The notes beneath the pieces are model-generated. The model searched no databases and was not told the origin of the DNA. It saw nothing but the letters and a program-made list of their open reading frames with translations. From assembly GCF_004923205.2 (NCBI RefSeq), contig NZ_SELD02000018.1:372001-436000 (forward strand): a stretch of DNA of 64,000 bases, in the 5' to 3' direction. This DNA is from Paracoccus aeridis. GTDB taxonomy: Bacteria > Pseudomonadota > Alphaproteobacteria > Rhodobacterales > Rhodobacteraceae. Position 1 is the stretch's first letter. Each line of letters starts with the position of its first letter. The position numbers were made by a program, and so were the translations under genes. Positions 48,376 through 51,012 of the stretch are shown one piece after another.

Positions 48376-49503
48376 TCAGCCCATCCCGCCGGCGACCAGC
48401 CGCTCGGCCAGGCGGGCATAGGCGTCGGCCACCGGCCCGCCGGTCGCGGCGACGGGGCGGCCCTCGTCCCCGCCCGTCCGCACCGAAAGATCCAGCGGGA
48501 TCTCGCCCAGGAACGGCAGGCCGCGCGCCTGCGCCTCGGCCGCGACGCCGCCGTGGCCGAACAGGTGTTCCTCGTGCCCGCAGTTGCGGCAGACATAGAC
48601 GGACATGTTTTCGACCAGTCCCAGCACCGGGGTCCGCAGCTTGTCGAACATGTCGATCGCGCGCCGGGCATCGATCAGCGCCACGTCCTGCGGGGTGGAA
48701 ACGATGATCGCGCCCGTCACCTGCGCCTTCTGGCACAGGCTCAGCTGCACGTCGCCGGTGCCGGGCGGCAGGTCGACCAGCAGCACGTCCAGGTCGCCCC
48801 AGTCCACCTGGTTCAGCATCTGCTGCAGCGCGCCCATCAGCATCGGCCCGCGCCAGACCACCGCCTCGCCTTCCTTCATCATCAGGCCCAGCGACATCAT
48901 GGCCAGCCCGTGCGCGCGCACCGGCTGGATCCGGTCGCCTGCGCTCGTCGGGCGCGCGGTCACGCCCAGCATGCGGGGCTGGCTGGGGCCGTAGATGTCG
49001 GCGTCAAGGACGCCCACGCGCCGCCCCGCGCGGGCGAGCGCCACGGCGAGATTCGTGGTGAGGGTGGACTTGCCGACCCCGCCCTTGCCGGACCCGATCG
49101 CGATGATCCGGTCGACGCCGGGGATCGCGAGCGGCCCCGCCTGCGGCGTCGGATGTCGACCGATCCTGAGGTTGGGCGCGGGCGCCCCGGAACCCGCCCC
49201 GGGAACTGCGCCGGAACCCGCCCCGCCGCTTTGCGCGGCGACCGCCGCGGTGCGGCCGGCGGGCGCGGTGGTGACGATCTGGACCGAGGTGACGCCGGGC
49301 AGCGCCTTCAGCAGCGCCTCGGCCTGCGCGCGGGCGGGCTCCAGCGCGCGGGCGAGCTGGGGGTCGGACGCCTCGATCACGAATCGGACGACGCCGTCGC
49401 CGGATACCTGCAGGGCCCGGACCAGGTCGGCCGAAACGAGATTTCCGCCGCCGGGCACCGGAACCGTCGCGAGCGATTCCATGATCCTGTCCTGGGTGGT
49501 CAT
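48376..49503 (-). CDS. mrp: Iron-sulfur cluster carrier ATPase Mrp/ApbC
   Basis: P-loop ATPase that loads Fe-S clusters onto target proteins. Its 375 residues have an N-terminal DUF59-type domain (1-80), a Gly/Ala-rich linker (about 90-112), deviant Walker A GSGKGGVGKST at 137-147, and the cluster-binding CxxC (YVCRNCGHEEHLFG). The start MTTQDRIMESLATV has AGAGG upstream; an upstream in-frame ATG adds 19 unconserved residues. It is transcribed toward mraZ. Confidence 0.95.
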   Translation of the reverse strand: MTTQDRIMESLATVPVPGGGNLVSADLVRALQVSGDGVVRFVIEASDPQLARALEPARAQAEALLKALPGVTSVQIVTTAPAGRTAAVAAQSGGAGSGAVPGAGSGAPAPNLRIGRHPTPQAGPLAIPGVDRIIAIGSGKGGVGKSTLTTNLAVALARAGRRVGVLDADIYGPSQPRMLGVTARPTSAGDRIQPVRAHGLAMMSLGLMMKEGEAVVWRGPMLMGALQQMLNQVDWGDLDVLLVDLPPGTGDVQLSLCQKAQVTGAIIVSTPQDVALIDARRAIDMFDKLRTPVLGLVENMSVYVCRNCGHEEHLFGHGGVAAEAQARGLPFLGEIPLDLSVRTGGDEGRPVAATGGPVADAYARLAERLVAGGMG

Positions 49504-49830
49504 CGGGTGCCTCTGAGTTGAACGGAGTTGCATCGCAGCATCGCAGGCGGGAAACGTCACGTAAAGCGGGGCGATCGGGGTCTGGACGTTGCGTCAAAAG
49601 CATGGCTGGCCGCCGAGACGCTGCTTTGACCAGTCGCGGATCTGTTACCAAGCCCCTGATGAAGCGTCATCACACGTAATGCGGGAACTTGTTCCATGCA
49701 CACAGCGCATGGCTCGTAGGCGTTTTCCGCCATTGTGCACCTGCAGCAAATGGCTCATCTATTGCCCAAGACGAACGCGCCGGATGTCAGCAGACGGAAG
49801 GGCGGGCGGGGCCCGGAAGGGCCGACAGGT
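49504..49830. other. mrp upstream region and small-RNA promoter region
   Basis: No supportable gene. GGAACTTGTTCC (49684-49695) is a perfect 12-base palindrome. An imperfect inverted repeat lies at about 49593-49635 (TCAAAAGCA and TGCTTTGA). GGCCC-GGAA-GGGCC (49810-49823) is a short hairpin just before the array. TTGTGC (49733) with CATCTA 17 bases later is a weak promoter candidate for the array. No DUF1127-like frame was found here. Confidence 0.4.
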
Positions 49831-49832
49831 TA

Positions 49833-49905
49833 CCTGGCCCCTTTCCTCCTCCCTGGGGGTTCAGGCTCGGGCGGCATCCCCTCCTCCCTCCTCGGGGATG
49901 CCGCC
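49833..49905 (+). ncRNA. Anti-SD hairpin unit A (CcsR/cuckoo-like)
   Basis: Hairpin 1: CCTG (49833-49836) with CAGG (49862-49865), extended by CCCC (49838-49841) and GGGG (49855-49858), loop TTTCCTCCTCCCT. Hairpin 2: GGCGGCATCCCC (49870-49881) with GGGGATGCCGCC (49894-49905), perfect 12 bp, loop TCCTCCCTCCTC. Both loops match the anti-Shine-Dalgarno core CCTCC. Two such hairpins per RNA is the cuckoo/CcsR design. Confidence 0.65.
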
Positions 49906-49911
49906 AACTCC

Positions 49912-50020
49912 ATACGCGACGATCCGATCCTCCTCCCCGGATCGACGCGGATCAGGCGGCGGCCCGCTCCTCCTCCCAGGGCCGCCGCCTTCCCTCCCGC
50001 CCTTCGCGGCGGGAAACGGA
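49912..50020 (+). ncRNA. Anti-SD hairpin unit B (CcsR/cuckoo-like)
   Basis: Begins ATACGCGAC. Hairpin 3: GCGACGATCCG (49916-49926) with CGGATCGACGC (49938-49948), one mismatch, loop ATCCTCCTCCC. Hairpin 4: GGCGGCGGCCC (49955-49965) with GGGCCGCCGCC (49979-49989), perfect, loop GCTCCTCCTCCCA. A further hairpin without the motif, CCCGCC (49996-50001) with GGCGGG (50008-50013), follows. Confidence 0.68.
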
Positions 50021-50097
50021 ATACGACGGCCCCTCCTCCTCCCCGGGGTCATCGTCAGCGATGCCGGCCATCTCCTCCCCGGCCGTCATCGCACCCC
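50021..50097 (+). ncRNA. Anti-SD hairpin unit C (CcsR/cuckoo-like)
   Basis: Begins ATACGACGG. Hairpin 5: 50023-50033 with 50045-50055 (one mismatch, one G-U pair), loop TCCTCCTCCCC. Hairpin 6: 50058-50069 with 50081-50092 (one mismatch), loop ATCTCCTCCCC. In hairpin 5 the sides around the mismatch pair correctly on both flanks, which argues for a maintained stem. Confidence 0.65.
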
Positions 50098-50180
50098 ATA
50101 CGCGGCCCCTCCTCCTCCCTGGGCCAGCGTTGTGCGGCGGCGCCTCTCCTCCTCCCCCTCCTGGCGCCGCCGCTTCTTTT
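50098..50180 (+). ncRNA. Anti-SD hairpin unit D (CcsR/cuckoo-like)
   Basis: Begins ATACGCGGC. Hairpin 7: GGCCC (50104-50108) with GGGCC (50121-50125), loop CTCCTCCTCCCT. Hairpin 8: GCGGCGGCGCC (50134-50144) with GGCGCCGCCGC (50163-50173), perfect 11 bp, loop TCTCCTCCTCCCCCTCCT. The T-rich tail of hairpin 8 sets the strand of the array. Confidence 0.68.
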
Positions 50181-50184
50181 CCCC
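50134..50184 (+). terminator. Terminator ending the hairpin array
   Basis: Hairpin 8 (50134-50173) is followed by TTCTTTTCCCC (50174-50184). It would end the array transcript 40 bases before the rlmJ start. Confidence 0.7.
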
Positions 50185-50223: not shown

Positions 50224-51012
50224 ATGTTGTCCTACCAGCACAGCTATCATGCCGGGAACGCGGCGGACCTGCACAAGCACGCGCTGCTGGCAGTCGCGCT
50301 GGAGCGGCTGGCGTCCAAGGACAAGCCCCTCACCTATGTCGAGACGCACGCGGGCCGCGGCCTTTACGACCTGCACGCCCCCGAGGCGCTGCGGACGGGA
50401 GAGGCCGGGGCCGGAATCGTCCGCGCGCTGGATCGCGGCTGGCTGCCGCACGGTCATCCCCTGCTGGGCGCGCTGGACGCGGTACGGACCCGGCATGGCG
50501 CGGCGGCCTATCCCGGATCGCCGCTGATCGCCGCGCATTTCCTGCGGCCGGGCGACGTCGCGCATCTCGCGGAACTGCACCCGCGGGAACACGCGGCGCT
50601 GGCCGGGGTCGCGGGCTTTGCCCACCTGCACCGGCAGGACGGGTTCGAGATGGCGAACGCCCTTCTGCCGCCCACGCCGCGGCGCGGAATGCTGCTGATC
50701 GACCCGAGCTACGAGGTGAAGGCCGACTACGACCGCATTCCCGCCATCATCGGCAAGCTGGCGCGCAAGTGGAACGTCGGCGTGATCGCGCTGTGGTACC
50801 CGATCCTGACCGACGAGCGGCAGGCGGCGATGGTGCGCGCGCTGGCCGCGGCGCACCCGCAGGCGCTGTCGTCCGAGGTGCGGTTCCCGCCGGCGAAGGC
50901 CGGGCACGGGATGGTGGGATCGGGGATGTTCGTCATCAACCCGCCCTACGGGCTGGCCGAGGAGGCCGCGCGGCTGGGGGCGATCTTCGCGGCGGATCAG
51001 GGTCGCGGCTGA
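50224..51012 (+). CDS. rlmJ: 23S rRNA (adenine2030-N6)-methyltransferase RlmJ
   Basis: Methylates A2030 of 23S rRNA. Its 262 residues start MLSYQHSYHAGNAADLHKHA, with the family's YVETHAGRGLYDL (SAM site), LLIDPSYEVKADY (catalytic DPSYE/DPPY-type) and the C-terminal VINPPYGL. The ATG at 50224 gives the conserved family start but has no good SD; the upstream array terminator suggests either read-through or a promoter in 50180-50220. Confidence 0.93.
   Translation: MLSYQHSYHAGNAADLHKHALLAVALERLASKDKPLTYVETHAGRGLYDLHAPEALRTGEAGAGIVRALDRGWLPHGHPLLGALDAVRTRHGAAAYPGSPLIAAHFLRPGDVAHLAELHPREHAALAGVAGFAHLHRQDGFEMANALLPPTPRRGMLLIDPSYEVKADYDRIPAIIGKLARKWNVGVIALWYPILTDERQAAMVRALAAAHPQALSSEVRFPPAKAGHGMVGSGMFVINPPYGLAEEAARLGAIFAADQGRG

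Follow-up and report, generated by a model that had tools for sequence, protein, structure and literature searches.

Tandem anti-Shine-Dalgarno hairpins between mrp and rlmJ of Paracoccus aeridis: a probable CcaF1-CcsR small RNA locus without ccaF1

Eight hairpins in four units between mrp and rlmJ

The window analysed here, a 64,000-nucleotide stretch of the Paracoccus aeridis genome, carries a run of eight plus-strand stem-loops between mrp, the divergent upstream neighbour (48376–49503, minus strand), which encodes an ApbC/NBP35-type Fe-S carrier ATPase (PF10609, 326 bits), and rlmJ, the downstream neighbour (50224–51012, plus strand), which encodes a 23S rRNA methyltransferase (PF04378, 159 bits). 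The initial annotation, which had pointed out these stem-loops, placed them before rlmJ, and this holds with the rlmJ start corrected to 50224. CCTCC is present in all eight loops, and in seven of them the delimited loop includes CTCCTCC, the exception being hairpin 2 with TCCTCCCTCCTC; the anti-Shine-Dalgarno motif CCUCCUCCC, or something near it, is found in the loop of every hairpin. Most stems had been called perfect or singly mismatched, and each of the eight indeed has zero or one mismatch. The sequence ATACG lies at 49912, 50021 and 50098 as annotated, and the spacings of 109 and 77 are correct.

The division of the hairpins into four two-hairpin units, also proposed in the annotation, was borne out by a covariance model (R2) with a hand-drawn structure that was made from 28 units of 15 ccaF1-bearing relatives (see below) and included no window sequence; an earlier model (R1) was discarded because its automatic structure paired the anti-Shine-Dalgarno loop bases. 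Across the 64 kb R2 matched the four tandem units of the array and nothing else, all on the plus strand, as follows: unit 1 at 49831–49908 (hairpins 49833–49865 and 49870–49905; 43.1 bits, E = 8e-6), unit 2 at 49915–49994 (hairpins 49915–49949 and 49954–49990; 45.3 bits, E = 3e-6), unit 3 at 50022–50096 (hairpins 50023–50055 and 50058–50092; 60.9 bits, E = 7e-9) and unit 4 at 50099–50177 (hairpins 50104–50125, the core only, and 50134–50173; 71.3 bits, E = 1e-10). The first unit begins at about 49831, the span originally given for the array having been 49833–50184. A further plus-strand hairpin that lacks the motif lies between units 2 and 3 at about 49991–50020 (fold −16.8 kcal/mol). Its presence had been noted as an extra of the second unit, but it is no oddity of that unit: 41 of the 60 Paracoccus arrays compared below have such a hairpin, and in 32 of these 41 it stands exactly four motif hairpins from the array end; from this recurring position it is a regular part of the array, and a role for it in cutting is only a guess.

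The last stem of unit 4, GCGGCGGCGCC/GGCGCCGCCGC, is followed by TTCTTTT and is weakly terminator-like. This is the T-rich tail of the annotation, although it is short and was not reported by our terminator scan, which admits loops of 3–8 only and whose single result was on the minus strand at 49778–49792 (0.5 expected). A 376 nt segment folds at −191.2 kcal/mol, whereas 100 dinucleotide-shuffled versions of it average −143.2 (sd 5.2), which gives z = −9.2, and there are six hairpins scoring at least 20 with CTCCTCC loops versus a mean of 0.03 and a maximum of 1 in 200 shuffles (for CCTCC loops, six versus a mean of 0.33 and a maximum of 2), so the array is not due to chance.

The array is a regular feature of the genus Paracoccus

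A DNA search of 61 Paracoccus genomes matched the array in 60; the sole miss, G017, is 71% complete and was left out. The comparison of gene order in relatives that the annotation had suggested shows that mrp-array-rlmJ is the ordinary Paracoccus location: the rlmJ start is at most 340 nt downstream of the last stem in 59 of the 60 genomes and mrp is upstream of the array in 54, the window being included in both counts. In 49 of the 60 a gene for a DUF1127 protein of about 75 amino acids, ccaF1, lies between the promoter (below) and the array, and it is absent in 11, the window included; both ccaF1 proteins that were scanned matched PF06568. The annotation was thus right that the window has no such gene upstream of the array, but the contrast it drew with known loci, that of an array without a DUF1127 gene and placed before rlmJ, fails, as a DUF1127 gene precedes the array at that very location in 49 of 60 genomes. 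Among 48 named Paracoccus loci with an upstream region, which partly overlap the 60 genomes, 42 have ccaF1 and six do not (P. luteus, P. salipaludis, P. sanguinis, P. chinensis, P. endophyticus and P. solventivorans); two more (L144 and L151) were not counted because their upstream region is missing.

Covariation and RNA family

Absence of support for the stems across relatives had been named as grounds for giving up the annotation's reading; instead, the stems covary. In the alignment of the units used for R2 (A3, from which one of 29 unit references was omitted) 92.3% of cells are standard pairs, double-sided changes are present in 9 of 19 pairs (nine were reached by 2 of 500 shuffles), and the covariation score is 0.342 compared with 0.179 when shuffled (none of 500 as high); sliding one side leaves a score of no more than 0.126. 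The stems are kept as pairs, then, while their sequence varies. Support is weaker for the first hairpin of a unit than for its second: in this alignment the second stem is 98.5% paired and the first 85.3%, the three outer pairs of the first hairpin are unpaired in 9 to 11 of 26–27 sequences, and an automatic consensus fold draws the first hairpin differently and, for unit 1, gives no first stem. An alignment of terminal units with 59 rows (G050 omitted) is 98.6% paired with double changes in 9 of 17 pairs, and the second stem of unit 1, aligned for 53 of the 60 arrays, is 97.6% paired with double changes in 9 of 11 pairs; slid controls gave 0–4 in each case.

The comparison with Rfam that had been recommended gave ar14 and CcsR1 as the best matches, both under their gathering scores. 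The ar14 model (RF02344) matches at 56.4 bits (E = 1.8e-9), 2.4 bits under its gathering score of 58.8, and the array of P. denitrificans at the same locus, with 61.6 bits, is above that cut-off. In the whole window genome the good ar14 matches (56.4, 53.1 and 43.1 bits) are all in the array, the next being 18.0. CcsR1 (RF02791) matches at 37.0 and 35.3 bits (best E = 2.5e-7) and does not reach its gathering score of 65.3, which is passed by 10 of 248 genomes of the family; 205 of the 248 match at E 0.001, a few of them perhaps by chance since one of 14 control genomes also gives a sub-threshold match. These best matches agree with the cuckoo and Rhodobacter sphaeroides CcsR1-4 kind of RNA named in the annotation, which had left the array "homologous or convergent". 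We find it homologous within Rhodobacteraceae, because its synteny is common to the genus and its promoter (below) and covariance model are common to the family; a convergent origin was rejected, as synteny, promoter and the model trained on relatives all agree. The array is most likely of the CcsR/ar14 kind by descent, as judged from these comparisons.

The tandem two-hairpin units with CCUCCUCCC loops resemble the CcaF1-CcsR1-4 operon of R. sphaeroides (RSP_6037; RF02791), from which the window differs in having no ccaF1 and in the low CcsR1 scores above. Adjacent hairpins with anti-Shine-Dalgarno loops and variable stems are likewise found in the alpha-r14 family, for example NfeR1 of Sinorhizobium meliloti (RF02344), but there three hairpins are present in one RNA, here eight in four units, and the bacterial order is a different one. 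The cuckoo RNA family was reportedly defined by Reinkensmeier and Giegerich in 2015. In it, too, the loop motif CCUCCUCCC is reported to be kept while the stems vary (PMC3927594, which precedes the 2015 paper and comes from that group, and PMC10253847).

Might the array RNA remain uncut and act globally as a decoy or sponge whose many loops soak up ribosome binding sites or other RNAs? Arrays with up to 16 similar loops occur within the genus, and a sponge RNA that acts on anti-Shine-Dalgarno sRNAs is reported from Caulobacter (PMC12559287). However, the two-hairpin unit is conserved (R2), of 59 genomes 56 keep ACGC at the border of the last unit and 39 keep ATACG there in full, the smallest arrays without ccaF1 have two or three hairpins, and the R. 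sphaeroides homologue is reported to be cut into discrete RNAs (PMC8625941, PMC7866481). We consider such a sponge quite unlikely, and prefer a precursor that is cut into separate sRNAs.

A conserved promoter block with a predicted LysR-type operator

A sigma70 consensus scan found no promoter in the region of the block described here, which came to light only by comparison. When the 60 upstream regions are aligned, one block is kept whether or not ccaF1 is present: TGCA-N6-GCAT, about 22 bases, TTGTGCA..YGCAGCA, CAT.TT and then, about 7 bases on, an A (57 of 60). Because TTGTG served as the anchor of the rows, its five columns are necessarily 60 of 60; beyond it, GC is present in 60 of 60 and the C-A-T-.-T-T columns in 56 to 60 of 60, genomes without ccaF1 included. 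In the window (all plus strand) the TGCA-N6-GCAT box, TGCACACAGCGCAT, is at 49697–49710, about −71 to −58, and is predicted to be a VtlR/LsrB-type LysR site; the core promoter, placed by comparison, is at 49733–49761, with TTGTGCA..TGCAGCA over the −35 region and a −10-like CATCTA at 49756–49761; and transcription is predicted, from spacing only, to start at about 49768, at the A that is kept in 57 of 60 genomes. The order mrp, promoter, array and rlmJ in the window is as in its ccaF1-bearing relatives.

In the window the box has all 8 of its 8 defined bases, and relative to the predicted start it falls within the roughly −72 to −57 expected of such an operator. At least 6 of the 8 bases are present in 60 of 60 genomes and at least 7 in 52 of 60, compared with 9 of 1200 control windows. 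For NfeR1 (ar14) of S. meliloti the LsrB site is reported to be TGCA-N6-GCAT at −72 to −60 (PMC10746234), and the window box matches this PnfeR1 site in its sequence element and in its predicted distance of about 60–70 nt before the start. The Brucella VtlR box is reported as the 15-base CAATGCAGCCATGCA (PMC12595884), of which 9 bases are present in the window, 7–12 in the 11 genomes without ccaF1 and 7–14 across the genus, with at least 12 in 30 of 60 Paracoccus genomes. Since the long box reaches only 7–12 of 15 there, the short box is the part that is kept in the window and the other ccaF1-less genomes.

The promoter elements of the window also recur outside the genus. A family-wide search supplied 30 loci, of which seven without a detected upstream ccaF1 were omitted from the promoter count; all 23 remaining ccaF1-bearing loci of other Rhodobacteraceae, including all 10 that pass the CcsR1 cut-off, carry the promoter block upstream of ccaF1, and in all 23 the reverse complement of the VtlR box is present with 12–14 of its 15 bases. 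In a background set of 460 windows, a score of 7 of 8 is attained by 18 for the short box, and one of 12 of 15 by 5 for the long box. The LysR site may nonetheless not be the main control, because the R. sphaeroides operon is reported to depend on RpoHI/RpoHII (PMC10253847), in which it differs from the predicted LysR site of the window.

Alternatively, the array could serve chiefly in cis, as a structured leader through which expression of rlmJ is attenuated or delayed. The closeness of rlmJ noted above (the distance from the last stem is exactly 36 in 21 of 60 genomes) and the weakly terminator-like last hairpin would suit a leader, but the array has its own promoter block between divergent genes, with its own coding gene in 49 of 60 genomes, and rlmJ lacks a purine-rich ribosome binding site with which the loops could pair, no GGAGG-like site being found before its ATG in the window sequence. 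The spacing argues in the same direction: the gap between array and rlmJ is 190–337 nt in 13 of the 59 genomes other than G050 (G001 at L052 and G003 at L058, for example), nine of which have a recognisable small ORF of about 70–85 codons in it, and in G050 (L095) and Paracoccus sp. S-4012 (L186) the ccaF1 array lies downstream of mrp about 2 kb from rlmJ, a separation that breaks the array-rlmJ link. We think it very unlikely that the array is mainly a leader. The single gap ORF that was scanned matches PF11160, Hva1_TUDOR.

Absence of ccaF1

Whole-genome searches with a ccaF1 alignment did not find ccaF1 elsewhere in any of the 11 genomes that lack it at the array. The best match in these genomes is a weaker DUF1127 paralogue (28.6–40.1 bits; other rows under 14 bits), and three ccaF1-bearing control genomes gave both ccaF1 at 67–124 bits and the paralogue at 30–38 bits. 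Relocation of ccaF1 was accordingly rejected, as 11 of 11 genomes hold the paralogue only and the controls hold both. The window genome has a single DUF1127 gene (L031), with no array behind it (no R2 match); it is not of the ccaF1 kind, and between the promoter and the array there is no DUF1127 gene.

Because 49 of 60 genomes have ccaF1 at that location, its absence from the window is best read as secondary loss and not as the mark of a separate or convergent array. A tree of rlmJ and mrp places three changes (the window alone, a clade of nine, and G021), two of them forced by well-supported branches; it is built from two proteins by a quick search, with eight rows less than half filled. The nearest relatives of the window, G028 and G037, both carry ccaF1, and the loss in the window's line therefore looks separate from that in the clade of nine. 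Loss of ccaF1 with later regain may also fit this pattern of presence and absence.

Arrays without ccaF1 are smaller, with a median of 5 hairpins (n = 11) compared with 11 in those that have it (n = 49; Mann-Whitney p = 1.5e-6, a value that ignores kinship, nine of the 11 being one clade). The clade of nine has 2–7 hairpins, and the window, G021, G028 and G037 have eight each. The most reduced arrays, those of G002, G013, G020 and G033, consist of three hairpins that begin 2–4 bases from the predicted start and are laid out like NfeR1; the P. chinensis array gives a full-length match to ar14 of 45.8 bits, under the cut-off. That such arrays are relics, decaying and non-functional since ccaF1 was lost, would be in keeping with their shortness and their 7–12 of 15 matches to the long operator motif (30 of all 60 genomes reach at least 12), but this is the least likely of the alternatives, since the window has as many hairpins as its ccaF1-bearing sisters G028 and G037, G021 is also unreduced, R2 finds strong matches in 10 ccaF1-less relatives (best 54–76 bits in each), and the core promoter columns are kept without ccaF1.

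The array family itself is already known, and the annotation named it correctly. Judged by the open-licence literature that we searched, what is new is that array and promoter persist where ccaF1 is, repeatedly, absent; the genus-wide anatomy of the locus is new as well, as are the predicted VtlR/LsrB-type operator and the likely ortholog of its regulator.

A candidate regulator and the DUF1127 paralogues

Since vtlR is reported to lie next to trxB (PMC7486931), and a LysR gene adjoins trxB in other alphaproteobacteria, the reference protein for our search was the LysR protein beside trxB in one such genome, chosen by position and not by name. The window genome has one LysR protein (PF00126, PF03466; C62:73148-74023) that is 51% identical to it over 295 aa, the next being 32%. 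Exactly one protein with 47–53% over nearly its whole length is present in each of 23 genomes (17 Paracoccus and six of other genera), in which no other match exceeds 36% over more than 150 residues. With a positional reference and a one-way search, this protein is likely to be the VtlR/LsrB-like ortholog in the window genome, and its occurrence in 23 of 23 genomes would speak against LsrB being unique to Rhizobiales, as has been stated (PMC11975290). In Rhodobacteraceae the gene does not adjoin trxB: in 13 of 13 genomes the two are well separated or do not share a contig.

The type of regulator predicted here, a LysR protein over anti-Shine-Dalgarno sRNAs and DUF1127 genes, is like that reported for AbcR with VtlR/LsrB in Brucella, Agrobacterium and Sinorhizobium, but AbcR RNAs are not tandem CCUCCUCCC units. 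An attempt to reach lsrB next to abcR by way of the Rfam suhB model failed, the best loci being another locus; suhB matches in alphaproteobacteria (loci L228–L247) are repeatedly beside two recurring protein families. The ar15 model found two sub-threshold matches only in 20 other alphaproteobacterial genomes.

DUF1127 paralogues of the genus carry a similar box. In 14 of 15 paralogues, from 14 genomes, a TGCA-N6-GCAT-like box with 7 or 8 of 8 bases is present, where about a quarter would be expected by chance as estimated from background windows. It is 118–131 bases before the start codon in nine of the 14, and in the other five it falls in the same range when counted from the usual MS.. start (a manual recount). 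The single DUF1127-type gene of the window genome (L031, on C64) has an exact TGCA-N6-GCAT about 122 bases upstream. As predicted sites, these boxes fit VtlR control of DUF1127 genes such as is reported in Brucella (PMC12595884).

Proposed working of the locus

We are confident, short of certainty, that the array is the Paracoccus CcaF1-CcsR (CIN1) locus minus ccaF1, and that it specifies a stress-controlled precursor of anti-Shine-Dalgarno sRNAs. The units, stems, promoter, synteny and gene absence in this reading come from comparison; transcription, processing, the regulator and the targets are what we infer. The conserved promoter with its VtlR/LsrB-like operator would drive a single plus-strand precursor that begins at about 49768 and reaches the hairpin that ends at 50173; RNase E cleavage at the unit borders would release four sRNAs, each roughly 75–80 nt long; each of these would show two C-rich anti-Shine-Dalgarno loops; and the loops would pair with purine-rich ribosome binding sites, so that under stress target mRNAs would be translated less. 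Elsewhere in Paracoccus CcaF1 from the same transcript would tune maturation and turnover, and in the window lineage maturation would run without it. In R. sphaeroides, RNase E is reported to release CcsR1-4 from the ccaF1 transcript, a process in which CcaF1 participates, and the RNAs are reported to act on flhR mRNA and to bind Hfq (PMC8307010, PMC8625941, PMC7866481), and NfeR1 is reported to silence mRNAs through three redundant anti-Shine-Dalgarno loops (PMC7143759).

Whether DUF1127 proteins work by binding RNA or by binding proteins is described as an open puzzle (PMC12501420), and lineages that have the RNAs and promoter but no ccaF1 would make the role of CcaF1 in CcsR maturation directly testable. 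The conserved operator, moreover, would provide a concrete regulator candidate in Rhodobacteraceae, where control by RpoH sigma factors is what has been described, and would connect sRNAs of two bacterial orders that have carried different names and been investigated apart.

A wider reading, which we raise as a real possibility without going so far as to favour it, is that the CcsR arrays of Rhodobacteraceae and NfeR1/ar14 of Rhizobiales belong to one ancient VtlR/LsrB regulon, in both orders of which DUF1127 proteins and RNAs with anti-Shine-Dalgarno hairpins are switched on by a LysR regulator of this type. Paracoccus would then display the evolutionary transition from one form to the other, since ccaF1, probably lost three times, leaves operator and promoter joined to the hairpins when it goes, with the most reduced, three-hairpin arrays in the NfeR1 layout. 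On this wider reading the species without ccaF1 would be natural knock-outs in which CcaF1 is dispensable for keeping functional CcsR-type RNAs.

Candidate targets were sought with the pattern GGGAGGAG-(4-9)-ATG, which occurs at 11 places in the window genome compared with one for the reversed pattern; some of the 11 are probably chance, being very short peptides or inside other frames. Seven of the 11 were scanned for protein family: two DctP-type TRAP binding proteins and one acetoacetyl-CoA reductase pass the cut-offs, two more have sub-threshold matches only (an FAD-dependent oxidoreductase and a partial indolepyruvate ferredoxin oxidoreductase), and two had no family match. The DctP-type candidates may be likened to the transport proteins that are reported as the main predicted targets of NfeR1 (PMC7143759). 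An indolepyruvate ferredoxin oxidoreductase-like gene runs divergently from that of the candidate VtlR/LsrB-like regulator (C62:73007-74023; L315, L341), and its ribosome binding site, GGGAGGAG, is perfectly complementary to the CUCCUCCC of the array loops.
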